Assembly: GCA_028692715.1 (NCBI GenBank)
Contig: JAQUWU010000034.1
Span: 1 to 53,864 of the forward strand
Length of the DNA stretch: 53,864 nucleotides
Direction of reading: 5' to 3'
Origin: Paludibacter sp.
Lineage (GTDB): Bacteria; Bacteroidota; Bacteroidia; Bacteroidales; Paludibacteraceae
Position numbers and translations under genes: made by a program. The notes below the pieces were generated by a model that worked only from the letters and a program-made list of their open reading frames with translations, searched no databases and was not told where the DNA came from. This document shows, one piece after another, positions 34,041-50,799 of the stretch; the first letter of the stretch is position 1; each line of letters starts with the position of its first letter.

Positions 34041-34046
34041 GAACTC

Positions 34047-34113
34047 ATGTATCAAAATTACACGATGATGAAACAAATTTGACAGTTATTGCTGTTTTAT
34101 CCCTCTATTTTTG
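34047..34113 (+). promoter_or_regulatory. Shared PUL operator and promoter, copy 1
   Basis: Direct repeats TGTATCAAAATTACA (34048-34062) and TGAAACAAATTTGACA (34069-34084) start 21 bp apart. The second overlaps TTTG (34078-34081); 24 bp later comes the -7 box TATTTTTG (34106-34113). Same layout, base for base in spacing, at 37105 and 46229. Drives the first T9SS protein gene. Confidence 0.8.
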
Positions 34114-34156
34114 CAACGTGGTTTATTATTACCCCGAACTTAACATCTATTTTTTT

Positions 34157-36820
34157 ATGAAAAAGCACTTAACTACATTGACGGCACTTTTATTTTTTTT
34201 ATTTACTTCAAGTGCACAAATTACAATTTACGATGGTGAAACAATTATTCCCGACTTTTGGGACATAGGTGGTAATCCGCCCAATGGAACTTCATGTCCA
34301 GCAGATGCTGGTTGGACCTTAAACGTGTCCGGCAAAATGGATATACTGACCGATGGATTATTAAATCCATACCCTACAGGTCTAAACACAACAGAGAAAG
34401 TTGTTAGGACTGTGCGCGCAGTAAATGGAGAAGGTTGGGCAGGAGCATCGCTTGATGTATCTGGTCTGGGACTAAATATTTCTACAACAAACAAATTCAG
34501 CGTCCTAATTTATAAAGCCATTGAAGGAAATGTAACCATGAAAATGGAAGGTGCAGGAAGTCAGGAAGTAACTGTTTATTATAATACTCCTGGACAATGG
34601 CAGAAACTGGAATTTACTTTTGACGCCGTAAATTTTACCGGCTCACCTACAACATTGCTTGTATTTCCACACAATCAAACCGGGTTAACTGAAACAATTC
34701 TCACCTATTGGGATGAAGTTACTATGTACGATGCTTCGGATAATCCGACAGTAATTTACAACGGTAATGATCCTGTCTCGGGATTCTTTGTAGATGGTTA
34801 CTGGGGCCCAAACGGCTCATTAAACAATCTTTGTACAGACGTTTTCCCTAATCTTTCAAAAACAGGAATAAATTCATCAAATCATGTTTTACGTTTCCTA
34901 CGTGCAAAAGATGGTGAAAGCTGGTGTGGAATGGGACTGGGAGGATTAGATATTGATGTTAGTTCTACACCAATTGTAAGCTTAATGATTTTGAAATCAG
35001 TGAGCGGAAGAGTGGCGGTTAAACTGGAAGGAGCAGGTTCGCAGGAAGTATATGCAGATTATACGACTCCGGGCGTTTGGGCCAGACTTAACTTTAGTTT
35101 TGATTCTGGCCAATTTTCGGGGCATCCGAATACTATAATCATAATGCCACATTTTGAAGAAACAAATTTGAACAATTTAGCAGATCATACTCCAATGTAT
35201 ATTGATAATGTACTACTCAGAGATGCATCCACTCTTCCGACAGATTATTTTCGAACAAAGAATTCAGGCAATTGGAGTGATGCTGTCACATGGGAATCTT
35301 CTTTTAATAATGCAAATTGGGTTTCTGCAATTTCCAGTCCCGGAAATACTGCATCGAATACTGAAATTAATACGGGATACAATGTTACGGTAGATGAGAA
35401 TGTTAATACAACAGATTTGACATTAAACCCAGGTACAAAACTTACACTAAATTCAGGATTTGTTTTGAACACCTCAACAATAAATCTGCAAAGCGATGAA
35501 ACAAACGGAACAGCAACATTTGTTGATAATGGAACATTTTCAGCCAATAATGTTTTTGTACAACAATATTTAACAGGAGGAAGAAACTGGTATTTGTCAA
35601 GTCCTGTTTCCACCGCCAGCAGTTCTGATTTTAGTTCAGCAGAGACAGTGTATAGTTATAATGAAACAAATGGAAGTTGGGATGCTGAAAATGCTTCTCT
35701 AATTCCGATGAAAGGTTATATTTCTGCTGCCACAACAGGCGATGGCGTTATAACATTAAATGGAACATTAAATACCGGAAATCAATCCATTCTGCTTTCC
35801 AGAAGTACAACAAATACTACTAAACCGGGATTTAATCTGGTTGGAAATCCATATCCCTCATATGTAAATTGGGAATTGGCCGCAAAAACCGACCTGAATA
35901 ATACAATTTGGTATCGAACACAAAATACTAATGGTACTTATGTTTTTGATACATTCAACGGAGTTGGAACAAATAATAATGAATCTGGTGAAGTCACTAA
36001 ATACATTCCACCGTTTCAGGCCTTTTGGGTACGTGTTAATGAAGGAAGTTCTAACGGAACACTTGCATTTGAAAATTCGATGCGCTCGCACGAAAATGGA
36101 ACAAATCGTTTAAAAGCACCAGCTCAGAATTCTACCGACCAACAGGTTGTCAGATTACAGGTTTCAAATGGAACAAACAAAGATGAAACTATCATATTAT
36201 TCAATGAAAGTGCATCTGATGAATTTGACAGTTTTGACTCACCGAAAATGACCAATGCTAATATTCGGATTCCGGAGATTTTTACCACCATTGGAACTGT
36301 AAACCTTGTAATAAACGGAATGAAAAAGTTTTCAGAAAATAATGAACTTCCTTTGGGATTTACAACGGGAGAATCAAATACCTTCACACTTAAAATTACT
36401 GAAGTGAAAAATCTGAGTCCTGATACCCGAATTATTTTGAAGGATAAAATTTTGAATACTGAGACTGATTTAACTGATGGTACTGCTTATAATTTCAGTT
36501 CGGGAATTGTAAACAATTCAACCAGATTCAGTGTAATGTTCAAAACACAGACATCTACTACTCAGGTGAATAAAATAGAAAATCCTTCGAAAGAGAATGT
36601 TGTATTTTTAAATTCGGAAAATCACTTAGTAATAAATAGGAATATGGAGAACAGCAAAGATAATGTGATTTCTATTTTCAATATATCAGGACAGAAAATA
36701 TATAATTCAGTAATGAATGGAAAATCTGTGATTATAGAACAAAAATTTAATCAGGGAACATATCTCGTAAAAGTTGGAAGTTCTGATAATTATTATACTA
36801 CCAAAATCACAATTAATTAA
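34157..36820 (+). CDS. Secreted T9SS-tailed protein with two copies of a putative glycan-binding module
   Basis: After a signal peptide (1-20) two related beta-rich modules follow (about 25-190 and 198-355), each starting with Y-D/N-G and having WxGxxL, GxGxQEVxxxY, PGxWxKLxFxFD, PH and YWDE or YIDN near the end. A middle region (360-780) resembles the beta-helix or repeat passengers of large secreted proteins. The last 80 residues are a type IX secretion sorting domain (FNISGQKIYNS, QGTYLVKVGS, TTKITIN). The frame is open upstream to 34079, but the ATG at 34157 begins the signal peptide, 44 bp after the -7 box. The operator ties it to the fructan regulon, so a surface fructan-binding role is likely but unproven. 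No catalytic motif is seen. Confidence 0.82.
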   Translation: MKKHLTTLTALLFFLFTSSAQITIYDGETIIPDFWDIGGNPPNGTSCPADAGWTLNVSGKMDILTDGLLNPYPTGLNTTEKVVRTVRAVNGEGWAGASLDVSGLGLNISTTNKFSVLIYKAIEGNVTMKMEGAGSQEVTVYYNTPGQWQKLEFTFDAVNFTGSPTTLLVFPHNQTGLTETILTYWDEVTMYDASDNPTVIYNGNDPVSGFFVDGYWGPNGSLNNLCTDVFPNLSKTGINSSNHVLRFLRAKDGESWCGMGLGGLDIDVSSTPIVSLMILKSVSGRVAVKLEGAGSQEVYADYTTPGVWARLNFSFDSGQFSGHPNTIIIMPHFEETNLNNLADHTPMYIDNVLLRDASTLPTDYFRTKNSGNWSDAVTWESSFNNANWVSAISSPGNTASNTEINTGYNVTVDENVNTTDLTLNPGTKLTLNSGFVLNTSTINLQSDETNGTATFVDNGTFSANNVFVQQYLTGGRNWYLSSPVSTASSSDFSSAETVYSYNETNGSWDAENASLIPMKGYISAATTGDGVITLNGTLNTGNQSILLSRSTTNTTKPGFNLVGNPYPSYVNWELAAKTDLNNTIWYRTQNTNGTYVFDTFNGVGTNNNESGEVTKYIPPFQAFWVRVNEGSSNGTLAFENSMRSHENGTNRLKAPAQNSTDQQVVRLQVSNGTNKDETIILFNESASDEFDSFDSPKMTNANIRIPEIFTTIGTVNLVINGMKKFSENNELPLGFTTGESNTFTLKITEVKNLSPDTRIILKDKILNTETDLTDGTAYNFSSGIVNNSTRFSVMFKTQTSTTQVNKIENPSKENVVFLNSENHLVINRNMENSKDNVISIFNISGQKIYNSVMNGKSVIIEQKFNQGTYLVKVGSSDNYYTTKITIN

Positions 36821-36843
36821 AGTAACCAAATCGTATAAATAAA

Positions 36844-37005
36844 ATGGAAAAAATAAAGTATATTCAACCAAAAATTGAGTGGGTAAAACTCGATAATGAA
36901 ATTTCGCTGGCATTGGAATCAACACCACCAACAGGGCCCTACGAATCAAATCTAGCAGCACCGGAATATATTTACAATGATCCTTTCAAATCAACAAATT
37001 GTTGA
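36844..37005 (+). CDS. Small 53-residue conserved-type peptide
   Basis: This frame reads MEKIKYIQPKIEWVKLDNE, then ISLALESTPPTGPYESN and ends FKSTNC. It starts 23 bp after the T9SS protein gene on the same strand. The pattern (charged start with YxxPxIE, a short hydrophobic middle, Pro/Gly/Ser-rich end) resembles small peptides found in many Bacteroidota genomes next to secreted-protein genes; some related families are precursors of modified or secreted peptides, which cannot be shown here. Coding is supported by position and composition only. Confidence 0.55.
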   Translation: MEKIKYIQPKIEWVKLDNEISLALESTPPTGPYESNLAAPEYIYNDPFKSTNC

Positions 37006-37104
37006 TTGAATTTTCCTGATCAGCATCTATATATCTGATTTACATACAAATGAAATTAGTTATTTTTGAAATTTCATGTAATCATTTTTCTAAAAAACTA
37101 CTAT

Positions 37105-37171
37105 CTGAATCAAAATTACATGTTCTTGCAACAAATTTGACAGAGTTCAGGATTTAATGACTCTATTTTTG
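37105..37171 (+). promoter_or_regulatory. Shared PUL operator and promoter, copy 2
   Basis: Repeats TGAATCAAAATTACA (37106-37120) and TGCAACAAATTTGACA (37127-37142) are 21 bp apart; TTTG 37136-37139, 24-bp spacer, -7 box TATTTTTG 37164-37171. This is the only copy before the susC/susD genes, so it probably drives 37219 through to the first GH32-type gene. Confidence 0.82.
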
Positions 37172-37218
37172 CAACGTGATTTTAAACAAACTTTTATCAA
37201 CCAAATAATTTAATCATT

Positions 37219-38469
37219 ATGAAAAAGTATTTTACTCTATTATTAAGCTTACTTCTAATTTCTTTTGCAACTACTGCTCAAACAACTATTTATGATGGAG
37301 AAACCTTCAGTCCGGATTTCTGGGATTTGGGTGGAACTCCTCCCAATGGTGCTGATTGCCCTGCCGGCGAAGGTTGGCTACTTAATGTTTCCGGAAAAAT
37401 GGATCTTTTGACTGAAGGTCTGTCCAATCCATTTTCAACTGGTTTAAACACTACAGAAAAAGTGGTTCGTTCCATACGTGCGGTGAACGGTGAAGGATGG
37501 GCAGGTGCGTCTCTTGATGTTACTGCTCTGAACTTAAATATCAGTTTGACTAACAAATTTAGTATTTTGGTATACAAAGAAATTGATGGAAACGTTACAT
37601 TGAAACTGGACGGAGCAGGTAGTCAGGAAGTAACTGTCAACTATAGTACTCCCGGACAATGGCAAAAGCTGGACTTTACTTTTGATGCAGCCAATTTCAC
37701 GGGTTCGCCTACTAGTTTATTAGTTTTTCCACATAATCAGGGTGGCTTAACAGAAACTATTATCACTTATTGGGATGAAGTAACTATGTACGATGCTAGC
37801 GATAATCCAACAGTAATCTACAACGGTAACGATCCTGTTTCGGGATTCTTTGTAGATGGTTACTGGGGACCAAACGGCTCATTAAACAATCTTTGTACAG
37901 ACGTTTTTCCTAATCTTTCAAAAACAGGAATAAATACATCAAATCATGTTTTACGTTTCCTACGTGCCAAAGATGGTGAAAGCTGGTGTGGAATCGGACT
38001 TGGTGGCTTAAGTATTGATGTAGTAAGTACTCCTGAATTTAGTTTAATGATTTACAAAAGTGTAGCTGGTAGAGTAGGAATGAAACTCGAAGGTGCCGGA
38101 GCTCAGGAAGTCTATGCGGACTATACTACTCCAAACGAATGGGAAAAACTGACCTTTACATTTGATGCTACACAATTTACTGGAAATCCAAATACATTGA
38201 TAATTTTCCCCCATTTTGAGGAAACAAATATCACCAACCTTTCTTATCATACTCCAATGTATATTGATAATGTGACTTATAAAGATACATCTACCAGCGT
38301 TAGCTTCCCAACTGAACAATTAGTTCCTGTATCGTATCAGGTTTACGGTTTGTCAGGAAATTATATCACTGATAATATCTTTAAATTGAAAAATGGAATT
38401 TATATTAAAAGAACTGTTTATGAAAACGGAGAAATTAAAAGTTCAAAACTTATTATCAATAAAAAATAA
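37219..38469 (+). CDS. Secreted two-module putative glycan-binding protein with short T9SS-like tail
   Basis: The 416 residues are a compact paralogue of the protein at 34157: signal peptide (1-20), two modules (about 25-190 and 198-350), then a 60-residue tail with YQVYGLSGNYI, KNGIYIKRTV and SSKLIINKK, which is the pattern of type IX secretion sorting domains although shorter than usual. DNA identity with the 34157 gene is very high in the second module (34741-34930 versus 37798-37990). It is the first gene after operator copy 2 and is followed by susC. Fructan binding at the cell surface is inferred from context. Confidence 0.82.
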   Translation: MKKYFTLLLSLLLISFATTAQTTIYDGETFSPDFWDLGGTPPNGADCPAGEGWLLNVSGKMDLLTEGLSNPFSTGLNTTEKVVRSIRAVNGEGWAGASLDVTALNLNISLTNKFSILVYKEIDGNVTLKLDGAGSQEVTVNYSTPGQWQKLDFTFDAANFTGSPTSLLVFPHNQGGLTETIITYWDEVTMYDASDNPTVIYNGNDPVSGFFVDGYWGPNGSLNNLCTDVFPNLSKTGINTSNHVLRFLRAKDGESWCGIGLGGLSIDVVSTPEFSLMIYKSVAGRVGMKLEGAGAQEVYADYTTPNEWEKLTFTFDATQFTGNPNTLIIFPHFEETNITNLSYHTPMYIDNVTYKDTSTSVSFPTEQLVPVSYQVYGLSGNYITDNIFKLKNGIYIKRTVYENGEIKSSKLIINKK

Positions 38470-38570
38470 TTCAGAATTTTAGCTTATCTCTGCAGAATAA
38501 TATAGTTCGAATGAATGAACTTTATTATTTTGCAGATTCAAAAAACATAATTTTAAATCTATCAAATATC

Positions 38571-41500
38571 ATGAACAAAAAAATCAGGCTTAAAAGCAAC
38601 TTGTTGCGAAAGCTGGGATTGTTGACAATATATTGTGCTTTGAGCACAATGATAATAGCTCAGGCAAGAACAATTACTGGTGTTGTAACTTCATCGGAAG
38701 ATGGCGAAAGCTTAATCGGTGTATCTATCGTTGCAAAAGGTACGACTATAGGAACAATAACGGGCTTAGATGGTGACTATAGCATTAATGTCAATGAGGA
38801 AACCACCACACTGGTGTTTTCAATGATAGGAATGAAAACAACAGAAGTAAAAATAGGTGGCAATAAAATAATAAACGTCATCATGGAACCCGATGCCATT
38901 TCATTGGAACAGGTAGTGGTTACCGGATATTCCTCACAAAAGAAAGCTGATTTAACTGGAGCAGTAACGGTTGTAAACGTTGATGAACTAAAAAAATTAA
39001 ATTCAAACAATCCGATGCAGGCATTACAGGGAAGAGCTCCGGGTGTAAGCATTACTTCGGATGGCTCTCCAAGTGGTTCGGGTACTACTGTCAGAATTCG
39101 CGGTATTGGAACATTGAACAGCAATGATCCGCTTTATATTATTGATGGTGTTCCAACGAAAAGTGGTATGCACGAACTAAATTCTTCGGATATTGAAAGC
39201 ATTCAGGTACTTCGTGATGCATCTGCTGCCAGTATTTATGGTTCACGTGCCGGAAACGGTGTTATTATCATTACGACAAAACAGGGCAAACAGGGCAAAC
39301 CAAAAATAAATTTTGATACCTATGTTTCAACTTCCAATTATGGAAAAGTGATTGACATGCTCAATACAAAACAGTTTGGCGAAGCCCAATGGCGGGCAAT
39401 GATTAACAGCGGTGTTGATCCGAATACGAATCAAATTGGTTACATGTACGATTATGACTATGATACAAACGGGAATGCTGTTCTGAATGGCATTAAAGTT
39501 CCCAAATATATCGATGCCAGAGACGGAACAAATACTATGTTATCTGCTAATACCGATTGGTTTGGACAAATAACCCGTCCGGGAATGGCTCAATCTTATA
39601 ATTTATCCGTAAGTAATGGAACCGAGAAAGGAAACAGTTTCTTTTCACTTGGATATTACGATAATCAGGGAACAATAAAAGACTCCTACTTCAACCGTAT
39701 TTCGAGCCGTTTAAATTCTACATATAAGATATTGGACGACCTGATTACAATTGGTGAAAATCTTTCTGTTAATCATTCTGCAGAGCTACAAGCACCAGGT
39801 GGTGTATTGGATTTGTCTATACTTTCACTTCCAATCATGCCGGTAAAAACAGAGGACGGTGATTGGGGAAGTGTTACTTCTGGTATGCGGGACCGTGACA
39901 ATCCTGCCCGCATTTTGGATGCCAATAAAAATAATCCGTATAGCTACTGGAGAATTTTCGGAAATGCATTTATCGACATTCAACCGCTTAAGAACCTACA
40001 TTTTAAAAGCAGTTTTGGTGTTGATTATTCTAATTATTATCAACGAATACTTACTACCAGCTTTACAGGCCGTCTGGGTTCAGACCTGACCTCTTCGAAA
40101 ATAGTTCAGAGTCATTCAATGAAATGGAACTGGGGTAATATCGCCACTTATGATTTTAAGATTGAAAAGAATAAATTCAATTTGCTGGCCGGTATGGAAA
40201 TGAACAAACAGACTGATATTAATTTCTCAACCGAAAGAAGAACTTATGAACTCGAAAATCCTGATTATATGTGGCCTTCGGCCGGTGTGGGTGAAATGTA
40301 CTCAACGGGAGGTTCTACCGGTTATGCACTCAGCTCATTTTTTGGAAAAGTGGATTACGTATATAGTGAAAAATACCTTGCTTCTGCAACAGTGAGACGC
40401 GATGGTTCTTCAAGATTTGGGATTGACAACCGCTATGCAACGTTTCCGGCTTTCTCAGCCGGATGGCGCATCAATCAGGAAAATTTTATGGATGGATTAA
40501 AAGATGTTGTTTCTGATTTGAAATTACGTGTAGGTTGGGGTCAAACCGGAAATCAGGAGATTGATAATTATGCAAATCAGACGCTAATCATTGCAAATTA
40601 TATTGGTGATACGGGTGCAGGAATAAATTCCGGAACTGCTTATGATATCAGTGGAGATGATTCGGGAATGTTGTTATCCGGTTATCAGTTGATACAACGT
40701 GCCAACGATATGATAAAATGGGAAACTACAACTCAAACAAATGTGGGTGTCGACTTCGGATTATTAAATCAGAAATTATACGGAAGTCTTGAATGGTATT
40801 TCAAAAACACAGAAGATATTCTGGTAAGACCACCTTATCTGGGTGCAATTGGTGAAGGTGGAGACCATTGGGTTAATGGTGCCTCCATGCAAAACAAGGG
40901 AATTGAATTCTCATTAGGTTATAGAGGTAAAACATCATTTGGGTTGAACTACGATCTAACGGGAAATATCTCAGGTTACAGAAATAAAGTAACAAAATTG
41001 CCTGAAAGTGTTGTAAATAACTATGGCGGAAATGGAACCACAGATAATATTCTTGGGAAACCTCTTGGGTCTTATTATGGATATGTGGCTGATGGGCTTT
41101 TCCAGACACAGGAAGAAGTGGATACTTATGCCGAACAAACAGGAAAAGGGTTGGGAAGAATTCGGTTTAAAGATCTGTATGAAGATAATATTATTGATGA
41201 AAAAGACCGTGCCTGGATAGGAAGTCCTCAACCTGATTTTGAATATGGATTGAATATCGTGCTGGATTGGAAAGGATTTGACCTAACCGCATTTTTTCAG
41301 GGAGTATATGGAAACGAAATTAATAATTCGGTAAAACGCTTTACTGATTTCTGGGCAGTTGATGAATTAGGTTCAAATAAAGGTGTACGAGTACTTGATG
41401 CATGGAGTTCGACCAATACCAGTTCTACTATTCCAGCTCTTTCTTTCAGCGATTTAAATAACGAAAAAAGATTCTCGTCGTATTATATTGAACCCGGTTC

Positions 41501-41711
41501 TTACCTGAAATTACGCAATCTTCAAATTGGTTTTTCACTTTCAAATAAAGTTATTAAAAAGTTGAAAATGGATAAAGCACGTATTTACGTAAGTGGACAA
41601 AACCTGATGACATTAAAAAGTAGTAAATTCACAGGACTCGATCCTGAAAATCCTAATCTGGCTTATCCTATTTCCACCACTTTTACTGTAGGACTAAACT
41701 TAGGATTTTAA
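38571..41711 (+). CDS. SusC-family TonB-dependent oligosaccharide transporter
   Basis: An outer-membrane transporter that works with SusD to import oligosaccharides, here probably fructo-oligosaccharides. The 1046 residues have a signal peptide (ending IIAQA), a carboxypeptidase-like domain (GVVTSSEDGESLIGVSI), a plug with the SusC signatures EQVVVTGYSSQKK, RIRGIGTLNSNDPLYIIDGVP and LRDASAASIYGSRAGNGVIIITTK, and a 22-strand barrel. The frame is open to 38511, but the ATG at 38571 begins the signal peptide. It is 102 bp after the module protein with no clear promoter of its own. It corresponds to BT1763 of the B. thetaiotaomicron levan PUL by position. Confidence 0.95.
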   Translation: MNKKIRLKSNLLRKLGLLTIYCALSTMIIAQARTITGVVTSSEDGESLIGVSIVAKGTTIGTITGLDGDYSINVNEETTTLVFSMIGMKTTEVKIGGNKIINVIMEPDAISLEQVVVTGYSSQKKADLTGAVTVVNVDELKKLNSNNPMQALQGRAPGVSITSDGSPSGSGTTVRIRGIGTLNSNDPLYIIDGVPTKSGMHELNSSDIESIQVLRDASAASIYGSRAGNGVIIITTKQGKQGKPKINFDTYVSTSNYGKVIDMLNTKQFGEAQWRAMINSGVDPNTNQIGYMYDYDYDTNGNAVLNGIKVPKYIDARDGTNTMLSANTDWFGQITRPGMAQSYNLSVSNGTEKGNSFFSLGYYDNQGTIKDSYFNRISSRLNSTYKILDDLITIGENLSVNHSAELQAPGGVLDLSILSLPIMPVKTEDGDWGSVTSGMRDRDNPARILDANKNNPYSYWRIFGNAFIDIQPLKNLHFKSSFGVDYSNYYQRILTTSFTGRLGSDLTSSKIVQSHSMKWNWGNIATYDFKIEKNKFNLLAGMEMNKQTDINFSTERRTYELENPDYMWPSAGVGEMYSTGGSTGYALSSFFGKVDYVYSEKYLASATVRRDGSSRFGIDNRYATFPAFSAGWRINQENFMDGLKDVVSDLKLRVGWGQTGNQEIDNYANQTLIIANYIGDTGAGINSGTAYDISGDDSGMLLSGYQLIQRANDMIKWETTTQTNVGVDFGLLNQKLYGSLEWYFKNTEDILVRPPYLGAIGEGGDHWVNGASMQNKGIEFSLGYRGKTSFGLNYDLTGNISGYRNKVTKLPESVVNNYGGNGTTDNILGKPLGSYYGYVADGLFQTQEEVDTYAEQTGKGLGRIRFKDLYEDNIIDEKDRAWIGSPQPDFEYGLNIVLDWKGFDLTAFFQGVYGNEINNSVKRFTDFWAVDELGSNKGVRVLDAWSSTNTSSTIPALSFSDLNNEKRFSSYYIEPGSYLKLRNLQIGFSLSNKVIKKLKMDKARIYVSGQNLMTLKSSKFTGLDPENPNLAYPISTTFTVGLNLGF

Positions 41712-41740
41712 TTTTTTACCTTAAATAATATCAAATAAAA

Positions 41741-43429
41741 ATGAAAACAATAAAAACAACAGTTTTAACGCTGATTACTATATTCTTCTTTCAGTCCTGC
41801 AACGATTTTCTGGACGTCCCATCCTATGGAAATTTGACGGAGAATAATCTTACCGGAGTAAAACAAATTGAAAGTGAAGTAATATCGGCTTATGCCGCTA
41901 TTGGAAATGATGAAATTAACAGGCCATTAAGCTTGTGGAACTATGGCAATGTACGCTCAGATGATGCTTACAAAGGTGGTAATGATCAGAATGATGGCGA
42001 TTTTCTTCACTTCCTCGAAATTTCATCCCCTTCGATAGGTAATGAAACATGGTATACCGATGTGTTTTGGTATAGAAATTATGTCGCCATTTCGCGTGCT
42101 AATTTCGCCTTACAGTTACTGAACAAAATAAGCGAAGAAGAAATGCCGAACCGAAAAGTACGAATTGCAGAAATGAGATTTTTACGTGCTCACATGCATT
42201 TTATTCAGAAAATTATTTTCAATAAAATACCGTTAATTGATGAAACCCTTTCACCTGAAGATATTGCCAATGTTTCGAATGTGGCATTGACAAATGATGA
42301 ATTATGGAAAAAGATCGCTGATGATTTTGAATATGGATATGAAAATTTACCGGAATCGCAAACCGAAGTGGGACGGGCAAATAAATATGCAGCTGCAGCT
42401 TATCTGGCAAAAGTATATTTATATAAAGCCTATCGTCAGGACGAAATGAACAATGTGATATCTGTAGATGCAACTGACATGCAGAAAGTGATCGACATGA
42501 CTACTTTTGTTATGAATTCTCCTTATCGTTTAGAAAATGATTTTGCCTACAATTTTCTTCCGGGCAGTTTCGAAAATGGACCTGAGTCATTATTTGCAGT
42601 TCAATTTTCGCATGATGACGGAACTACTTATGGTCGGTTGAATATGGGAAATGCCCTGACAACACCAACTCCCGGCGGTGACTTCAATAAACCAAGTCAA
42701 AGTCTGGTGAATGCTTATAAGACATCAAACGGACTACCAATGTTTGACGTTTATAATAGTGCAGATTATAACGAAACAACTGATAAAACTGATCCCCGTT
42801 TATTTCATACAGTTGCCATTCCGGATAAACCATATAAATATACGAACATAAATTATGAAAGAAACCAGTCGCGCAATCCGGGAATGTACGGTTATTTTTC
42901 TTCCCTAAAAGAAAATGTTGATCCGGCCAGTGAATTTTATATCAAAACCGGTCCGTGGTATGCAAATTCGAAAAATCAGATTGTTATCCGCTATGCCGAT
43001 GTTATTTTAATGCGTGCAGAAGCACTTATTGAAACAAGTAGATTTGCAGAAGCTTTACCATTAATAAATCAGGTGCGTAATCGTGCAAAAGTAAGTACCG
43101 GTTTAATAGGATTTGCAACCAATGTAAATATTCAAACCTATCAGGACGGAGTGAATTGTACATGGACGGAAGATTATGCAAGAAAAGCATTGCGTTGGGA
43201 ACGAAGATTGGAATTTGCTATGGAAGGCAGTCGCTTTTTCGATTTAGTTCGCTGGGGAATTGCCGATTCAGTTATGAACGATTATTATCTGAAAGAAGCA
43301 CTTGAACATACTTATTATCAGGGTGCTCAATTCATTAAAAACAAAAATGAATATGTACCTGTGCCTATTCAGCAAATTAATTTCAGCAAGGGAATTTACG
43401 AACAGAATTACGGATTTTTAAAAAACTAA
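41741..43429 (+). CDS. SusD/RagB-family glycan-binding lipoprotein
   Basis: A surface lipoprotein that forms a lid over SusC and captures glycan. The 562 residues start with a lipoprotein signal (lipobox FQSC, Cys20), then the SusD fold with an N-terminal TPR-like half (EMRFLRAHMHFIQKIIFNKIPL) and a C-terminal SusD motif (VILMRAEALIETSRFAEALPLINQVRNRA, then ALRWERRLEFAMEGSRFFDLVRW). It is 29 bp after susC and 3 bp before the next lipoprotein, clearly one operon. BT1762 is the positional equivalent. Confidence 0.95.
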   Translation: MKTIKTTVLTLITIFFFQSCNDFLDVPSYGNLTENNLTGVKQIESEVISAYAAIGNDEINRPLSLWNYGNVRSDDAYKGGNDQNDGDFLHFLEISSPSIGNETWYTDVFWYRNYVAISRANFALQLLNKISEEEMPNRKVRIAEMRFLRAHMHFIQKIIFNKIPLIDETLSPEDIANVSNVALTNDELWKKIADDFEYGYENLPESQTEVGRANKYAAAAYLAKVYLYKAYRQDEMNNVISVDATDMQKVIDMTTFVMNSPYRLENDFAYNFLPGSFENGPESLFAVQFSHDDGTTYGRLNMGNALTTPTPGGDFNKPSQSLVNAYKTSNGLPMFDVYNSADYNETTDKTDPRLFHTVAIPDKPYKYTNINYERNQSRNPGMYGYFSSLKENVDPASEFYIKTGPWYANSKNQIVIRYADVILMRAEALIETSRFAEALPLINQVRNRAKVSTGLIGFATNVNIQTYQDGVNCTWTEDYARKALRWERRLEFAMEGSRFFDLVRWGIADSVMNDYYLKEALEHTYYQGAQFIKNKNEYVPVPIQQINFSKGIYEQNYGFLKN

Positions 43430-43432
43430 ATT

Positions 43433-44557
43433 ATGACTAAGCTATTTAATTATATATTCGTCTTATTGGTCTTTGTTACTGCTTTTACTTCTTGCAAAGT
43501 AGATGACAGAGATGTTTTATACACAGCTGCGGATGTTGACATCCATTCCTTTAGTATAAATGGAGTGGAGGGAACAATTAATCCTGATAATTCAACAATT
43601 TCTGTTATTTTGCCTGCAGGTACAAGCCTAAAAAATCTTTCACCAGATATAATGCTAGGAGAAGGTGCAGTAGTAAGCCCAAACACAGGAGAAGCTGTTG
43701 ATTTTACTGATGCCGGTGGAAATCTGACTACAGTAATGTATCTTGTATCTAACAAAGATGTTTATCAGAAATATACTGTTTCGGTGGATGTGGCAAGAGC
43801 CAAAATCACTAAATTTAAAATAGGATCGGTAGAAGGTGACATCGATGATATAACAAAAAAAATCACTTTTTATCTTCCTGTCGGAACAGATCTGACAACA
43901 CTTATTCCGGTTGTTGAATATACCGAAGGTGCAGTTCTTTCACCTGCTTCAGGATCTGTTGTTGATTTTAGCAGTCCTGTTAATTTTAGCCTGGATTATT
44001 TAGGTTCAATATTCACTTACGAAGCAACTGTACACTTGGGCGAAAAACCAACACCTGTACTGACATTATACAATGGTGAAAATATATCACCAACATGGGC
44101 ATCAATTGCAAGTACTTTAAATAACGGCTATGTAAATCCGAAAACAGACGGAATTAATACCACTTCTACCTGCGTTTCAATAATGAGAAAAAAAGAAGCA
44201 ACAGATGATGGAGGTCGTCCTTGGTCCGGAGGTGCATTATGGAACGAAAACAAAGTAAATATCGATCCTGCTATTTACAATAAATTTACGCTTATGGTCT
44301 TGAAAAATATAGCAGGAGATGTACAGCTTGAAGTTCAATCCAATGGAGAACAAAACAAAGACTGGCTGAAAGCGACTTATTCCGCAGATGCTTTGGGTGC
44401 TTGGCAGGAACTGACTTTTGAAATTCCAGCAAGCCGGACTGCTATTATAAACAATATTTTAGTTGCTCCTCATGTGGTTGATACAGAAAACGATGCTAAT
44501 TTTACATCTCAAATGATGTATTGGGACGAACTTAAAGCGTATCCAAAACAACAATAA
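43433..44557 (+). CDS. SusE/F-position lipoprotein with the PUL module at its C-terminus
   Basis: The 374 residues have a lipoprotein signal (lipobox FTSC, Cys21), two Ig-like DUF5018-type domains (about 35-115 and 120-200; each has a PAGT or PVGT turn and a GAVxSPxxGxxVDF strand), and one copy of the beta-rich module also found in the proteins at 34157 and 37219 (about 208-372, starting YNGENISPTW, with PWSGGALW, AWQELTFE, APH and YWDE). Proteins at this position in PULs are surface glycan-binding proteins; BT1761, the levan-binding one, is the positional equivalent. So the module is probably the fructan-binding part (inference). Confidence 0.85.
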   Translation: MTKLFNYIFVLLVFVTAFTSCKVDDRDVLYTAADVDIHSFSINGVEGTINPDNSTISVILPAGTSLKNLSPDIMLGEGAVVSPNTGEAVDFTDAGGNLTTVMYLVSNKDVYQKYTVSVDVARAKITKFKIGSVEGDIDDITKKITFYLPVGTDLTTLIPVVEYTEGAVLSPASGSVVDFSSPVNFSLDYLGSIFTYEATVHLGEKPTPVLTLYNGENISPTWASIASTLNNGYVNPKTDGINTTSTCVSIMRKKEATDDGGRPWSGGALWNENKVNIDPAIYNKFTLMVLKNIAGDVQLEVQSNGEQNKDWLKATYSADALGAWQELTFEIPASRTAIINNILVAPHVVDTENDANFTSQMMYWDELKAYPKQQ

Positions 44558-44563
44558 TCCAAT

Positions 44564-44592
44564 TTTCCCGGTGCTGAAACAGCACCGGGAAA
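44564..44592 (+). terminator. Hairpin between the SusE/F-like and GH32-type genes
   Basis: A perfect 13-bp GC-rich stem (44564-44576 with 44580-44592), loop AAA, sits 7 bp after the stop and ends 15 bp before the next start. A short T-rich stretch follows. It may be a partial terminator or an RNA-processing site that lowers expression of the enzyme relative to SusC/D. Confidence 0.6.
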
Positions 44593-44606
44593 TAAAATTT
44601 GTTTTT

Positions 44607-46181
44607 ATGATCAGAAAATTATATTTGTTACCGGCTTTATTTGTTTTTATGTCATGTACAGGTTGTAAGGGTGATCCTATTGATCCTCCGTCAACTACAA
44701 AAATTGACACTACAACAACTATCAGAGAAATTCAGGAAACAGGAGCATACAGCACGCTTTACAAACCTCAAAGCGGATATGTCGGTGATCCTATGCCCTA
44801 TTATAATGCCGATGATAATTCGTATTACATTTTCTTTCTTCAGGACTGGCGTAATGGAGCTCCTACAGATCATCCGATATATAGTACAAAAACAACCGAT
44901 TATGCAACTTTTCAGGGCTTCAGTCAGGTAATTCCAACGGGAGTTGCTGGTTCTCAGGAAACAATGCTTGGTACTGGAAGTTTTATAAAAGATGCAAGTG
45001 GGAAAATGTATGGGTTTTACACTGGACATAATGGTAGTTTATATCCGGCAGAGAAGGTCATGCTGGCAACTTCTACCGACATGCGAACTTTCATTAAAGT
45101 TCCTTCATTTACTTTTGAAGCACCTGATGGCTACGACAAAAATAATTTCCGCGACCCTTGTGTTTATTATGATCCTACAAGGTCGGCTTATGTAATGCTT
45201 GTTTCAACCATAAAAAATGGAAAAGGAACTCTTGCACGCTACACTTCCGGCGATTTAATGAACTGGTCATTAATTTCTCCACTTACTGATTTTAATTCGG
45301 ATACAGATATTTTGGAATGTCCGGATATTTTTCAAATAGGGAATAAATGGTATCTAGTATTTTCGAGAATTAACCGAGATCAGCATCGTAAAACATTTTA
45401 CCGCATAGCCGATTCGCCTGATGGACCATGGAAGATATGCGAAGATGCTTCTGGACATCACGAAACATTCGACGGTTTATATCTTTATGCAGCAAAAACT
45501 GCCAGCGATGGTAATACTCGTTATCTTTCAGGTTGGTGTTCAACCGGTCAGACAGTGAATGGAAAAAACGAACTGGATTGGGCAGGGAGTCTGATTACAC
45601 ACAAACTGGTACAACAGCCAAACGGATGTTTATACCCGGCAATACCTGAAGCAGTGGATAATAAATTCAACAAAGTGCTGGATTTTGCTAAAATTAAATC
45701 GCAGGGAAATGTTTCAGGAGAAAAGGGCTCGTACACTATTGCTTCGCAAAATGGTCGAAGTTATGCCATGTTCAACAGGAATACTGTACCAGTAAAAATC
45801 TCTATGAAAATTGATGCTTCGCAGTCCGATAATTTTGGGTTCTCATTTGGAGCCGGGGGAGATATGTCTGAGGTTTATTCTGTAGATTTTGATTTAACTT
45901 CAACCAATCATTGGTCAACACCGGCGATTTTCATGAATAAAGAATCAAATTTTGCTACTGGTTCTTATATCAATGAACTGAATTTTACACCACTCATTGT
46001 ACCTGAAAATAAAATTTTTAATGTGAAAATAATAATTGAAAAATCCATTTGTGTGGTATATGTAAACAACAATGTTGCCTTTACAAATCGGATATATAAA
46101 ATGAACCAAAATCCGTGGACTATCTTCTCGGATAAAGGAACAATAAGAATTACAGATATGAATATCAATAAAATACCATGA
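44607..46181 (+). CDS. GH32-type beta-fructosidase lipoprotein, variant subfamily
   Basis: Likely hydrolyses beta-fructan at the cell surface. The 524 residues begin with a lipobox (FMSC, Cys17). The five-bladed propeller motifs of GH32 are there in a variant form: the nucleophile Asp is D61 in GYVGDPMPYY (instead of WMNDPNG), RDP at 182-184 (NNFRDPCVYYD), and the acid/base Glu E237 in ECPDIF. A C-terminal beta-sandwich follows (about 380-520). The ATG at 44607 is chosen because it begins the signal; the frame stays open to 44571. By position it matches the surface endo-levanase BT1760, but its subfamily and linkage specificity are uncertain. Confidence 0.82.
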   Translation: MIRKLYLLPALFVFMSCTGCKGDPIDPPSTTKIDTTTTIREIQETGAYSTLYKPQSGYVGDPMPYYNADDNSYYIFFLQDWRNGAPTDHPIYSTKTTDYATFQGFSQVIPTGVAGSQETMLGTGSFIKDASGKMYGFYTGHNGSLYPAEKVMLATSTDMRTFIKVPSFTFEAPDGYDKNNFRDPCVYYDPTRSAYVMLVSTIKNGKGTLARYTSGDLMNWSLISPLTDFNSDTDILECPDIFQIGNKWYLVFSRINRDQHRKTFYRIADSPDGPWKICEDASGHHETFDGLYLYAAKTASDGNTRYLSGWCSTGQTVNGKNELDWAGSLITHKLVQQPNGCLYPAIPEAVDNKFNKVLDFAKIKSQGNVSGEKGSYTIASQNGRSYAMFNRNTVPVKISMKIDASQSDNFGFSFGAGGDMSEVYSVDFDLTSTNHWSTPAIFMNKESNFATGSYINELNFTPLIVPENKIFNVKIIIEKSICVVYVNNNVAFTNRIYKMNQNPWTIFSDKGTIRITDMNINKIP

Positions 46182-46228
46182 CGTGAGAACTTTTTAAAAG
46201 TTGAATTAGTGTAATTATAAACACTGAA

Positions 46229-46295
46229 TTGTATCAAATTTACACAACGATGTATCAATTTTGACAGTTTTTGTATTGTTGTTAATCTATTTTTG
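46229..46295 (+). promoter_or_regulatory. Shared PUL operator and promoter, copy 3
   Basis: Repeats TGTATCAAATTTACA (46230-46244) and TGTATCAATTTTGACA (46251-46266), the most alike pair of the three, are 21 bp apart; TTTG 46260-46263, 24-bp spacer, -7 box TATTTTTG 46288-46295. Drives the GH32-porter-fructokinase unit. Confidence 0.85.
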
Positions 46296-46317: not shown

Positions 46318-48096
46318 ATGAAAATAATGAAAAAGTCAGTTATCTTCTTCATAATCCTCTTGCTAATTACATTTGTAAATTGTCGGTCCGACAAATCAAA
46401 AAATAATCCATCCAATTCAACCGTTGATTTTAAAATAGAATCTTCTTATCTGCTATTGCCTATCGAAGAAAAAGCAAAGGAAGTAAAAATGACGGTACAG
46501 TATAATGACAATGAACCCGTTTCTGCTTTCTTCCTACGGTTAGCCGAAAATAAAATTGATTACTGGGTGAAAATTGATGTGAAAAAATATTTTGGTAAAA
46601 CAATCACACTCCGTTTTGAAGGTGTAGAAAGTTCGCTTTTGGGTATAAACAGCATTAAACAATCCGATAAATTTGAGTTTGAATATGCTGAAAAATTTCG
46701 TCCCGGATTTCATTTTACTCCTGAATATGGCTGGATGAACGACCCGAACGGAATGGTTTTTCTGGATGGTGAATATCACCTTTTTTACCAGTATAATCCA
46801 TACGGAACTATGTGGGGAAATATGCACTGGGGACATGCTGTCAGTATGGATATGACTTCATGGACTTACCTGCCTACTGCCATTGCACCAGATAGTTTGG
46901 GCGATATTTTTTCGGGAAGTACCGTGATTGATGTAAATAACACTGCAGGATTTGGTAAAAATGCCATGATTGCCATTTATACTTCTAATGGAAAAATTCA
47001 GCAACAGTCCATTGCTTATAGTACTGATAAAGGACGCACTTTTACTAAATATGCACATAATCCGGTCTTACCCAATCCGGGAATAACCGATTTCCGTGAC
47101 CCTAAAGTTTCGTGGAATGATATTTCCAATCAATGGATTATGACCCTTGCGACTAAATCAACCATTACTTTTTACGGTTCTCCAAATCTCAAAGAATGGA
47201 CAAGATTGAGTGAATTCTCAAATGAAAAAGGAGCTCACGGCGGAGTTTGGGAATGTCCTGATTTATTTCCATTGACCTACGAAGGCAAAACCAAATGGGT
47301 GTTGTTGGTGAGCATCAATCCTGGTGGACCCAACGGAGGTTCGGCAACGCAATATTTTATCGGTGATTTTGATGGAAAGACATTCACATCTGACTCACTT
47401 CCCTATCCGCTTTGGATTGATTATGGACGCGATAATTATGCCGGGGTAACATTCTGTAATATTCCTCAAAATGATGGGAGACGCCTTTTTATGGGTTGGA
47501 TGAGTAATTGGGATTATGCCAATAATGTTCCGACTAAAAATTTCCGAAGTGCAATGACGGTTGCCCGTGAACTGACATTGAAAAATAATGGTGAACATCT
47601 GGTTTTGAGCAGCTTCCCTGCTAAAGAAGTAAGCAAACTAAGAGCAAAAGAAAATGTTGTTTCAAATCAGATGATTACTAAAGAAAAGTCGATTAGTGGT
47701 TTGTTGAAAGACTATAACGGTCAGTTTGAAATTGAAATGACAATTGATAGACAGAATGCGAAAATTTTCGGATTCGGACTTACCAATTCAAACAGCGACT
47801 ATATCAATTACACCTTTGATCTTGAACAAAACATCCTGAAAGTAGACCGCAGGAATTGTGGAATAAAAGATTTTAATCAGAAGTTTGCTTCTGAACCTAT
47901 TGCACCATTAGCAAAAAGAGATACCTATAAAATCAGATTGTTGGTTGACAAAGCATCCACAGAACTCTTTATCAACGATGGTGAAATAGTTTCAACCAAT
48001 ATCATTTTCCCCACAGGTGGATATGAAGATTTGACATTCTTCACTCCGAATCACAGTTGGAAAGCTGAAAACATAAAAATTTACGAAATAAAATAA
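46318..48096 (+). CDS. GH32 exo-fructanase (levanase/inulinase/invertase type)
   Basis: Releases fructose from fructans, fructo-oligosaccharides or sucrose. The 592 residues have a lipoprotein-like signal (FVNC), an extra N-terminal beta domain (about 35-120) common in Bacteroidota GH32 enzymes, then the propeller with the classical catalytic triad: D142 in WMNDPNG, D261 in FRDP and E312 in WECPD. The C-terminal beta-sandwich (about 440-590) has the usual STELFINDGE motif. Operator copy 3 is just upstream; the sugar porter follows 15 bp later. Periplasmic or surface location depends on lipoprotein sorting, which cannot be read here. Confidence 0.94.
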   Translation: MKIMKKSVIFFIILLLITFVNCRSDKSKNNPSNSTVDFKIESSYLLLPIEEKAKEVKMTVQYNDNEPVSAFFLRLAENKIDYWVKIDVKKYFGKTITLRFEGVESSLLGINSIKQSDKFEFEYAEKFRPGFHFTPEYGWMNDPNGMVFLDGEYHLFYQYNPYGTMWGNMHWGHAVSMDMTSWTYLPTAIAPDSLGDIFSGSTVIDVNNTAGFGKNAMIAIYTSNGKIQQQSIAYSTDKGRTFTKYAHNPVLPNPGITDFRDPKVSWNDISNQWIMTLATKSTITFYGSPNLKEWTRLSEFSNEKGAHGGVWECPDLFPLTYEGKTKWVLLVSINPGGPNGGSATQYFIGDFDGKTFTSDSLPYPLWIDYGRDNYAGVTFCNIPQNDGRRLFMGWMSNWDYANNVPTKNFRSAMTVARELTLKNNGEHLVLSSFPAKEVSKLRAKENVVSNQMITKEKSISGLLKDYNGQFEIEMTIDRQNAKIFGFGLTNSNSDYINYTFDLEQNILKVDRRNCGIKDFNQKFASEPIAPLAKRDTYKIRLLVDKASTELFINDGEIVSTNIIFPTGGYEDLTFFTPNHSWKAENIKIYEIK

Positions 48097-48111
48097 TAAT
48101 CCTACTAAAAA

Positions 48112-49449
48112 ATGAATAACAAGTATTTATATTGGATCACCTTTGTGGCCATTAACGGTGGTTTACTGTTCGGTTTGAACATGGCCGGAATCTCAGGAGC
48201 TGTGGATATGATTAAAGGCGAATTTTCGCTTACTGACAGTGGCTTGGGAACTGTAGCTGCTCTACTTACTTTCGGTTGTTTAATAGGAGCACTTTTTACC
48301 GGTAATTTTACCGAAAAATACGGACGTAAGAAAGTAATGCTTTTCACAGCCATCGTTTATATCATTTCAGCATTTGGATGTGCATTGTCCGAATCGGCTA
48401 CAGTATTGACTATTTTGCGTGTTCTTTCAGGTCTGGCTGTAGGTGCTACTTCTGTTGTTGCACCCATGTATATTTCTGAAATTGCACCTGCACATAATCG
48501 TGGTCGATTGGTTTCGTTCAATCAGTTTGCCATTACGATTGGAATTGTATTGGCTTATATTTTCGATTATTTGCTAATGGGATTAGGTGAAAATAGCTGG
48601 CGTTATATGTTGGCTGTTCCGGGAGTTTTTGGTATTGTATTTTTTGTTTTTCTATTACTTAAATTCCCCGAAAGTCCACGATGGTTATTGGCTCACGGTA
48701 AAAAAGATGCAGCAATAAAAGTTCTCACAAGCATTGGAGGAGAAACTCTGGTGAGAACCGGATTGCCGGAAATGGAAAAAGCCATGCTTGCCGAACAGAA
48801 AAAAGAAAAGATGTCATTCGGTGAACTATTTAAAGGAAAAACAGGAAAAGTTGTATTGATTGGAACTCTGATTGCTGCACTACAACAAATTACGGGTATA
48901 AACGCTGTGATTATGTTTTCACCGGAAATTTTTAAAGCTGCAGGTTCAGCACAAGGTGATTCGGTAATGCAGGCAATGATTGTAGGAATGGTAAATTTCC
49001 TGATGACCATTGTTGCATTGTGGCTGGTGGACAAGAAAGGACGCAAAACCTTGTTGCTTTGGGGTGCTGTAGGTATGATAGTTTCATTGGCCTATTTGAC
49101 GTTGGAATTTTCAAAACCAGTTCAAAATGGCACAGGAGTATTGATAGCTTTATTGGTTTATATTTCCTTCTTTGCAGCTTCGTTTGCCCCGGTTATGTGG
49201 GTTATCATTTCTGAGATTTATCCAAATCGTATAAAAGGTGTTGCCATGTCGTTTTCAACAGCTGTAAGTTGGTTATGTACATTCCTGACTGTTTATTTTG
49301 CTCCTGTTATTCAGGGTTCATTAGGATTAAATTATCTTTTTGCCATATTCGGAGTATTCAGTGTTATTGCATTTATATTTGTAAAAATCTGGATTCCTGA
49401 GACGAAAGGAAAATCATTGGAACAAATTGAGTTGGAACTTGGATTATGA
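48112..49449 (+). CDS. Sugar porter (MFS), probable fructose transporter
   Basis: Inner-membrane proton-sugar symporter or facilitator. The 445 residues have about 12 membrane segments and the sugar-porter signatures: GRKKVMLF, the PMYISEIAPAHNRGRLVSFNQ loop, FPESPRWLLAHGK, QQITGINAVIMFSPEIF, and PETKGKSLEQIE at the end. It lies between GH32 and fructokinase in one operon, so fructose is the probable substrate; BT1758 is the positional equivalent. Confidence 0.93.
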   Translation: MNNKYLYWITFVAINGGLLFGLNMAGISGAVDMIKGEFSLTDSGLGTVAALLTFGCLIGALFTGNFTEKYGRKKVMLFTAIVYIISAFGCALSESATVLTILRVLSGLAVGATSVVAPMYISEIAPAHNRGRLVSFNQFAITIGIVLAYIFDYLLMGLGENSWRYMLAVPGVFGIVFFVFLLLKFPESPRWLLAHGKKDAAIKVLTSIGGETLVRTGLPEMEKAMLAEQKKEKMSFGELFKGKTGKVVLIGTLIAALQQITGINAVIMFSPEIFKAAGSAQGDSVMQAMIVGMVNFLMTIVALWLVDKKGRKTLLLWGAVGMIVSLAYLTLEFSKPVQNGTGVLIALLVYISFFAASFAPVMWVIISEIYPNRIKGVAMSFSTAVSWLCTFLTVYFAPVIQGSLGLNYLFAIFGVFSVIAFIFVKIWIPETKGKSLEQIELELGL

Positions 49450-49450
49450 A

Positions 49451-49604
49451 ATGACCCCCCAACCCGAAGAAGAACCCCCGTCCCCTAAAGGGGAGTAAGA
49501 AATATTACAACAGATTACTTATAAATATTTTATATGAAAAATTCACAAAAAATTAAACAAGACGCAACTAACATCATCTCCCCTTTAGGGGATGGGGGTA
49601 AAAA
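49451..49604. repeat. Inverted pair of GC-rich palindromes (REPIN-like) over the fructokinase start
   Basis: ACCCCCGTCCCCTAAAGGGG (from 49474) and, on the opposite strand, ACCCCCATCCCCTAAAGGGG (49600 back to 49581) are near-identical and face each other with centres about 103 bp apart. The pair spans the intergenic gap and the first 24 codons of the fructokinase gene. Confidence 0.7.
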
Positions 49605-50493
49605 CATTATAGTAGGTATTGGTGAAATATTATGGGATGTATTTCCCGAAGGAAAAGTGTTGGGTGGAGCACCCGCAAATTTCGCATATCATGTATCGCA
49701 GTTCGGATTTGATGGGTGTGCCATAAGTGCCGTCGGGAATGATCAATTGGGCGAAGAGATTATCGAAAATTTAGATAGTAAAAACTTAAAATACATTGTG
49801 GAGAAAACACCTTTCCCTACAGGTACTGTTCAGGTTACTTTATCCGGTAATGGAATTCCGGAATATGAAATTTGTCAGAAAGTGGCATGGGATAATATCC
49901 CGTTCACAACAAGAATGGAAGAGTTGGCCAGGAAAACAAAGACAGTCTGTTTTGGTTCACTGGCTCAGCGCAGTCAGGCATCAAGGCTAACTATCAACCG
50001 GTTTTTAGATTTAGTTCCATCTGAGGCATTAAAAATATTCGATATAAATTTGCGTCAGCATTTTTATTCACAAGAATTGATTGATCATTCGTTAAACAGG
50101 TGTAATATTTTGAAAATAAATGATGACGAAGTTTTACTCGTTGCTAAACTGTTCGATTGGGAAATAAAGAATGAAATGCAGATTTGCAAACAACTGCTAG
50201 AGAGTTATTCTCTTGATATGGTAGTGCTTACTAAAGGAACACAGGGTAGTTTTGTAATCTCAGAAAATGAAATTTCATTTAAACCAACTCCACTGGTAGA
50301 TGTTGCAGACACTGTAGGTGCAGGCGATTCATTTACTGCAGGTTTTGTAGCTTCACTATTAAGTGGAAAAAGCATATCGGAATCGCATGAAATTGCAGTG
50401 GAAGTATCTGCATATATATGCACGCAACATGGTGCCATGCCCATATTGCCCAACAGTTTGTTGTCCAAAGTCAAAGTAAAAACAAATTCATGA
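49534..50493 (+). CDS. Fructokinase (PfkB family)
   Basis: Phosphorylates fructose to fructose 6-phosphate in the cytoplasm. The 319 residues show the PfkB pattern: GEILWDVFPEGKVLGGAPANFAYH near the start, NxxD-type ILKINDDEVLL, and the active-site DTVGAGDSFTAGF with the catalytic Asp265. Homologues begin just before IVGIGEILWD; here about 26 extra codons (containing NIISPLGDGGKN) come from a palindromic repeat, so the N-terminus is unusual. The ATG at 49534 is the only in-frame ATG before the conserved core; GTG or ATT starts near 49600 are the alternative. Last gene of the GH32-porter-kinase unit, with a terminator after it; BT1757 is the equivalent. Confidence 0.9.
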   Translation: MKNSQKIKQDATNIISPLGDGGKNIIVGIGEILWDVFPEGKVLGGAPANFAYHVSQFGFDGCAISAVGNDQLGEEIIENLDSKNLKYIVEKTPFPTGTVQVTLSGNGIPEYEICQKVAWDNIPFTTRMEELARKTKTVCFGSLAQRSQASRLTINRFLDLVPSEALKIFDINLRQHFYSQELIDHSLNRCNILKINDDEVLLVAKLFDWEIKNEMQICKQLLESYSLDMVVLTKGTQGSFVISENEISFKPTPLVDVADTVGAGDSFTAGFVASLLSGKSISESHEIAVEVSAYICTQHGAMPILPNSLLSKVKVKTNS

Positions 50494-50510
50494 ATATGAT
50501 TTCTCACTAT

Positions 50511-50544
50511 AAAAAAACCGGTTGGATTATCAATCGGTTTTTTT
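50511..50544 (+). terminator. Terminator after fructokinase
   Basis: A stem (ACCGGTTG with CAATCGGT, one G-T pair, 6-nt loop) flanked by seven A and seven T residues, 17 bp after the stop. Confidence 0.85.
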
Positions 50545-50799
50545 GTGATTATTAACTAATCAGACAATTTGTAATTTATTAGTAACAAAATAGGTAACTT
50601 GCAACTTTATATTCGATTATGTTGCTTTTTTTCATTACTTTTGGATGTTGCTTGAATGTTAAACTCATAGAAATTATTTAAAAATAAGATAGTTACTGTT
50701 TTAATAAACATAAAAATTCATAATCTTCTGATAAACAATTCTTCTTTCGTATTAACGTTTATTTTTAAACAGTTACATACTCTAATTAACCTTTTTAAG
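50545..50799. other. AT-rich gap before the hybrid regulator gene
   Basis: No gene, no copy of the 39-bp operator, and no exact TAnnTTTG box was found. The regulator therefore seems to be expressed separately and not by the same activation signal. Confidence 0.3.

Follow-up and report, generated by a model that had tools for sequence, protein, structure and literature searches.

In Escherichia coli, AraC acts at araI1-I2, where two direct half-sites are spaced by 21 bp and the downstream half-site lies at the -35 region. Direct-repeat operators with an average distance of 21 bp were predicted in 2013 for 16 of the 36 hybrid two-component systems (HTCSs) of Bacteroides thetaiotaomicron, and BT1754 was named HTCS_Fru in the same work (PMC3878776). 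A reporter carrying the 300 bp before the susC gene BT1763 showed a 35-fold rise on levan and a 1.4-fold rise without BT1754 (PMC9845299), and the S/CHIP motif of HTCSs has been tied to phosphorylation-dependent DNA binding (PMC11253607). The -7 box of sigma-ABfr promoters is TAnnTTTG (PMC7366714). Here we analysed a stretch of 53,864 nucleotides from Paludibacter sp. (assembly GCA_028692715.1, contig JAQUWU010000034.1, positions 1 to 53,864 of the forward strand; hereafter the window), in which a 39-bp element occurs three times in a fructan locus. The element is very probably the operator of the HTCS encoded at 50800-53565, and the bound regulator is predicted to recruit polymerase on fructose at three promoters that have no -33 box. 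Our own evidence consists of the sites, their conservation, geometry and gene context, and their co-occurrence with the regulator.

The locus resembles the HTCS_Fru regulon in its periplasmic-binding-protein sensor fused to a kinase, a receiver and an AraC domain, in its GH32, transporter, fructokinase and SusCD targets, and in a regulator class with direct repeats about 21 bp apart; this likeness concerns architecture, gene content and class geometry. It differs in the genus, in a surface protein with a weak match to a type IX secretion system (T9SS) sorting domain, and in a regulator gene standing behind a terminator-like hairpin. The 21-bp direct half-sites, with the downstream one at the -35 region, are shared with E. 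coli araI1-I2, whereas the sensor-kinase fusion replaces the arabinose-binding arm of AraC and the sigma factor and -7 box are those of Bacteroidota. In the regulator, a periplasmic sugar-binding-type sensor is fused to HisKA, HATPase, receiver and AraC-type helix-turn-helix (HTH) domains, and the gene adjoins GH32, sugar transporter, pfkB kinase and SusCD genes. The sensor matched PDB chain 2x7x, which we take to be the BT1754 fructose sensor, at E 1.3e-92, and the receiver-HTH part matched PDB 12aw at E 1.6e-57. The HTH domain was 50-90% identical to those of the fructan regulators compared, and 28-45% identical to AraC-type domains in 40 stretches around other HTCSs. The protein thus appears to be the counterpart of B. 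thetaiotaomicron BT1754 (HTCS_Fru), and its likeness to 2x7x suggests that it may bind fructose in the periplasm. Since direct-repeat operators of HTCSs were predicted before (PMC3878776), the operator class is known, and the element would be a member of it in another genus.

Three copies of a 39-bp element

The three 39-mers proposed by a sequence-only reading of the window align without gaps, and their coordinates, all on the + strand, proved right (Table 1). Each carries two direct half-sites with starts 21 bp apart (3/3), as had been said, and the consensus given for them, TGnAWCAAAWTT(G)ACA, is exact in five of the six copies; copy 2 of element 3 has one mismatch (CAAT versus CAAA). Because copy 1 ends in TTACA and copy 2 in TTGACA, the ACA end is offset by one base between the copies. 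The -7 box TATTTTTG begins 24 nt after TTTG in all three elements, again in agreement with that reading; equivalently, half-site 2 and the box are separated by 20 bp (3/3). With the centre of the box placed at -7, half-site 1 would extend from about -69 to -55 and half-site 2 from about -48 to -32. As in the HTCS operators of Ravcheev et al. 2013, described as two direct sites at an average of 21 bp read by a dimer on one DNA face (PMC3878776), the direct sites are about 21 bp apart, conserved before genes of polysaccharide utilization loci and rare elsewhere.

Operator 1 is separated by 71 nt from the likely start codon, an ATG at 34157, and the longer open reading frame (ORF) from TTG 34079 would enter the operator. 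Operator 2 lies inside a 398-nt gap preceding 37219, and operator 3 inside a 136-nt gap downstream of the stop at 46181. The flanks of the three elements are dissimilar (23-47% identity over 60 bp on either side), so the promoter has not been copied recently. Immediately before operator 1, at 33850-34046, we also identified a dispersed repeat with 49% GC, against 35% for the window, which belongs to no Rfam family at gathering score; the genome holds two more copies of 163 and 173 bp, with 87 and 83% identity, plus a 29-bp piece.

Within its own genome of 4.85 Mb the element is rare. The half-site 1 pattern with a loose continuation gave three matches, all in this locus, and the same half-site pattern read backwards gave none. 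A matrix built from 20 relatives' sites, with the window left out, scored the three elements at 48.9, 46.0 and 39.3 bits, and reached a maximum of 18.6 bits over 19.7 million positions of first-order Markov sequence. With a profile of 23 aligned sites (A3) that include the window's three, the elements had E values of 5.5e-17, 3.9e-14 and 3.1e-13 and the next best match 0.0039; because the window's sites trained this profile, the leave-out score is the fairer number. The whole-genome motif search that the sequence-only reading had asked for therefore returned only three strong sites, all in the locus. A fourth match in the window (28293, 16.5 bits) lay inside a gene, had no -7 box and scored below 10 bits with the leave-out matrix, and was set aside as chance.

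Sites in relatives and the genes behind them

A first matrix, which took in the three window sites but no -7 box, was used to scan 20 stretches around orthologous regulators. Thirteen sites above 20 bits (12 above 24) were found in eight of these stretches, and TA..TTTG stood 20 bp past repeat 2 in 13/13. A second matrix, built from those 13 sites and the window's three, was run over loci L039-L137 (1.67 Mb, overlapping) and yielded 29 distinct matches above 15 bits. TA..TTTG was present within 60 nt of 25 of them, always at offset 20 (one also had a second box at 38), and absent from four; the 25 comprise 13 training sites and 12 new ones. In the 58 loci numbered L080 and above, which are mostly from other genera, 14 matches above 4 bits stood at offset 20, in 13 loci, whereas the other 39 offsets averaged 0.05. 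The Bacteroides loci L130, L135 and L137 have the same core, with one site each before a transporter, kinase and HTCS set (by Pfam in L137). The only ORF behind a second L130 site codes for 98 aa and lies 478 nt away. Six sites from Phocaeicola and other Bacteroidaceae (L095, L098, L107, L112, L120, L131) precede a protein of 772-802 aa without a Pfam family in the three tested, with GH32 next in L095. Those in L105, L115, L116 and L127 precede a SusC-size gene; in L105 and L127, the two examined with Pfam, it proved SusC-like. A motif-free test, which measured self-match at lags 12-32 upstream of TAnnTTTG, found a 21-bp self-repeat at this same place in 15 of 134 boxes of fructan loci, the background mean being 0.39.

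The genus set comprised 48 genomes, the window's own included, in each of which the profile scored the best 108 candidates under stricter filters. Some profile match at E <= 0.1 was present in 45 genomes. At E < 1e-6, a cut chosen once the list was known, where the E values jump from 2.6e-7 to 1.1e-4, there were 42 matches (3 own, 39 in relatives) in 21/48 genomes. The regulator was found at E <= 1e-180 in 24/48 (partial in G009). All 21 genomes with the element lie within these 24, and none of the 24 regulator-less genomes carries it, indicating that the element is nested in the presence of the regulator.

The downstream gene was taken mechanically as the first ORF of at least 80 aa within 600 nt, and contig ends made three of the 39 relatives' sites unreadable. 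Among the 36 readable sites, 14 stand before SusC-like genes with 30-79% identity to that of the window, 16 before GH32-like genes (25-66%, BLAST), two before genes of CBM surface proteins, one before a DUF4960 gene followed by susC, and one before the regulator gene itself (G032). With 34 of 36 sites before SusC-like, GH32-like, surface-protein or regulator genes, the element is not scattered at unrelated genes, although SusC likeness alone is no proof of a fructan substrate. Eighteen of the 39 are training sites; of the other 21, 18 were readable and 16 of these fell in the usual set by hand count. Taken together, the rarity in the own genome, the co-occurrence with the regulator and the downstream genes give comparative backing to the proposal that the HTCS at 50800 has its operator in this element, and that the element unites a three-promoter fructan regulon.

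Several results weigh against this reading. Twelve of the 20 regulator stretches have no credible site: 11 hold nothing above 14 bits, several of them being short or starting near the regulator, and L050 has a match of 14.6 bits without a -7 box, which we attribute to chance. Among the 58 loci from L080 upwards, 45 have no site at offset 20. Three of the 24 regulator genomes (G009, G020, G025) are without a strong element; in G020 and G025 the contig with the regulator gene is short or starts roughly 1 kb before that gene, and G009 has no such explanation. The genus-wide counts are those of the filtered candidates only, and two of the 36 readable sites lie outside the usual set, before exbB at 502 nt (G071) and before a DUF2961 gene (G006). 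Promoters without a -33 box may also be less special than they seem, since no -33 motif was identifiable in Flavobacterium johnsoniae (PMC7366714). In loci of other HTCSs, TTTG showed only a slight excess at spacers 19 and 20, with 4 and 5 of 156 boxes, and spacer 30 reached 4 too. A 21-bp lag with at least 10 of 16 matches was seen there in 12 boxes, versus 2 to 7 boxes at the other 14 lags (40 stretches, 171 boxes), so that the 21-bp/20-bp geometry leaves a weak sign in those loci, a hint only.

The two sites outside the usual set deserve a description of their own. The G071 site (L218:1042-1107, on G071:C27) has an operator and a -7 box, and scores 34 bits; the stretch up to exbB would be an extended untranslated leader or contain a small gene that was overlooked. 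The site suggests that the fructan regulon may take in genes for energising TonB. The operator-like site in G006 (L235:4381-4445, - strand, 32.5 bits) lies on contig C16, 41 nt before the DUF2961 gene, and the regulator match of that genome is on C40. DUF2961 and GH172 are presumably the same family. Because a paper on a difructose-dianhydride-I enzyme and the new hydrolase family to which it belongs names DUF2961 and GH172 (PMC8605356), this exception may be a true fructose-linked target, and the gene a possible unlinked member of the fructose regulon.

Promoter type and competing explanations

Over the 23 aligned sites, the information was 1.48 and 1.39 bits per column in the repeats, 1.62 in the -7 box and 0.26 in spacer columns 39-55. 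The box TAnnTTTG is present in 23/23 sites; all but one of these were picked by a box-free matrix, and the choice of the rest was not box-independent. At columns 31-34, TTTG occurs in 8/23 sites, the window's three included, and ATTG, AATG, TTTT or others stand elsewhere. At the usual 19-21 spacing TTTG occurs in 0/23, which sets these promoters apart from the Bacteroides sigma-ABfr promoters whose -7 box they share. We therefore take the window's TTTG to be part of a half-site variant and the promoters to be without a -33 box; the idea of the sequence-only reading that repeat 2 overlaps a genuine promoter TTTG followed by a spacer lengthened to 24 bp did not hold. The conserved distance is the 20 bp from repeat 2 to the -7 box, and sites in Bacteroides, Phocaeicola and Dysgonomonas keep it as well. 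The operator most likely serves in place of the -33 element, and dependence of the promoters on an activator can be inferred with good reason. A sigma-70-like TTGACA in half-site 2 was rejected, as it is not conserved in relatives. The accessible text of PMC3878776 mentions neither a fixed distance to the -7 box nor a missing -33 box, and we found no statement of the two together in the literature surveyed, most subscription journals being outside it. Because the supplement of PMC5061871 marks both predicted HTCS sites and -7 boxes for arabinan genes, the relation between site and -7 box may have been visible to others.

We propose that free periplasmic fructose would bind the Peripla_BP_4 sensor, whereupon the fused kinase would phosphorylate the receiver and DNA binding would become possible. 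The two AraC-type domains of the dimer would each occupy one of the direct half-sites, which lie on the same face of the DNA at a distance of two helical turns. The downstream half-site would take the place of the -33 element, exactly 20 bp before TAnnTTTG, and the bound regulator would contact RNA polymerase with the main sigma factor and recruit it to the promoters without a -33 box, whose predicted start sites would follow the -7 boxes. Three presumed transcription units would be switched on in this way: the surface protein gene, the CBM-SusCD-GH32 genes and the GH32-transporter-fructokinase genes.

Other explanations have to be set beside this one. If TTTG were a genuine -33 box overlapped by the operator, in a sigma-ABfr promoter whose 24-bp spacer is too great for it to function unaided, the TTTG-N24-TATTTTTG arrangement of all three window sites would be accounted for; however, the relatives keep TTTG at that place in so few of the aligned sites (8/23), and boxes of other-HTCS loci have it at spacer 24 so seldom (2/156), that we consider a stretched promoter unlikely. 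The regulator might instead repress, covering the -33 region from the downstream half-site until it is released by fructose, given that half-site 2 sits where a -33 box would be and that one HTCS, BT2391, has been described as a repressor (PMC11253607). Such a block would find no -33 box to cover (0/23), the regulator has the SHIP motif that is tied to phosphorylation-gated binding (PMC11253607), and loss of BT1754 drops the levan induction of the B. thetaiotaomicron susC reporter from 35-fold to 1.4-fold (PMC9845299), all of which makes repression very improbable.

That a DNA-binding protein other than the HTCS at 50800 reads the element is conceivable in genomes with many further HTCSs, but the complete nesting of the element in regulator presence (21/21), the AraC-type direct-repeat geometry, the G032 site before the regulator's own gene and the published precedent for HTCS operators (PMC3878776) speak against another reader, which we regard as quite improbable. 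Recent duplication of promoter DNA together with paralogous genes, with no shared control, would fit the relatedness of the 34157 and 37219 products (common matches; N-termini). It is hardly credible, since flanks, linker and 20-bp spacer have diverged while the repeats and the -7 box have not, site 3 stands before an unrelated gene, and the same split between repeats and spacer columns extends over all 23 sites.

Operator function under the HTCS at 50800 thus remains the preferred reading, and with strong comparative support it extends a regulon of gut Bacteroides to environmental relatives labelled Paludibacter. The idea of a stretched promoter gives way to a sharper rule, an operator fixed 20 bp from the -7 box without a -33 box. 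A wider claim is possible, if doubtful: half-sites 21 bp apart, 20 bp to TAnnTTTG and no -33 box might define a rigid promoter class, in which the AraC domain replaces the -33 contact, across Bacteroidales and possibly for all HTCSs, with targets, among them the unlinked exbB operon and DUF2961 (GH172-type) genes, readable from sequence. If the rule were general, the targets of many uncharacterised HTCSs could be predicted from DNA alone. Look-alike repeats were seen near other HTCSs in L145, L140, L168 and L175; in L145, around 7730 on the - strand, a repeat of another kind, also spaced by 21 bp (ATACAACATTCTGA type), lies about equally far from TATATTTG. The Cur (BT4338) consensus given in PMC11501099 had 8 matches at 3 mismatches, versus 10.0 by chance, and none within 4 kb of the three promoters.

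Genes of the locus

The features of the locus are collected in Table 1. Among 14 control genomes, only Bacteroides ihuae gave a match.

Table 1. Elements, promoter boxes and genes of the fructan locus (window coordinates)
Feature	Coordinates	Strand	Remarks
Operator 1 (predicted), 39-mer	34047..34085	+	half-sites 34048-34062 and 34069-34085; before 887-aa surface protein gene
-7 box TATTTTTG, promoter 1	34106..34113	+	20 bp past half-site 2; position kept in relatives
887-aa protein	34157..36820	+	ATG start chosen by us; longest ORF from TTG 34079; T9SS sorting-domain (Por_Secre_tail) match below Pfam cut-off
Operator 2 (predicted), 39-mer	37105..37143	+	half-sites 37106-37120 and 37127-37143; before CBM/SusC/SusD/hypothetical/GH32 genes 37219-46181
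-7 box TATTTTTG, promoter 2	37164..37171	+	by sequence
CBM_4_9 carbohydrate-binding protein	37219..38469	+	Pfam
SusC-like TonB-dependent receptor	38511..41711	+	Pfam
SusD-like protein	41741..43429	+	Pfam
Protein without Pfam family	43433..44557	+	Pfam scan and loci comparison; kept in several relatives' fructan loci
GH32 with BT1760-like C-terminal domain, probably endo-levanase type	44571..46181	+	Pfam
Operator 3 (predicted), 39-mer	46229..46267	+	half-sites 46230-46244 and 46251-46267; before GH32/MFS/fructokinase genes 46318-50493
-7 box TATTTTTG, promoter 3	46288..46295	+	by sequence
GH32 fructan hydrolase	46318..48096	+	Pfam
MFS sugar transporter, probably for fructose	48112..49449	+	Pfam
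pfkB-family sugar kinase, probably fructokinase	49534..50493	+	Pfam
Terminator-like hairpin	50505..50546	+	16 pairs including U run, z -6.6; between kinase and regulator genes
HTCS regulator, BT1754 type	50800..53565	+	Peripla_BP_4 sensor, HisKA, HATPase, receiver with SHIP at residue 743, AraC-type HTH

The 887-aa protein, with its weak T9SS sorting-domain match, is a candidate member of the fructan regulon. In G001, a homologue of 881 aa with 48% identity likewise comes with a weak operator match (24.6 bits).

The hairpin at 50505..50546 was not among the results of a simple terminator scan. As it lies between the kinase and regulator genes, the regulator is probably transcribed apart from operator 3. 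No element precedes the regulator gene at 50800 in its own genome; in G032 an operator stands before the regulator's own gene (G032:C21, L046:412-477, - strand), which suggests that autoregulation differs within the genus.

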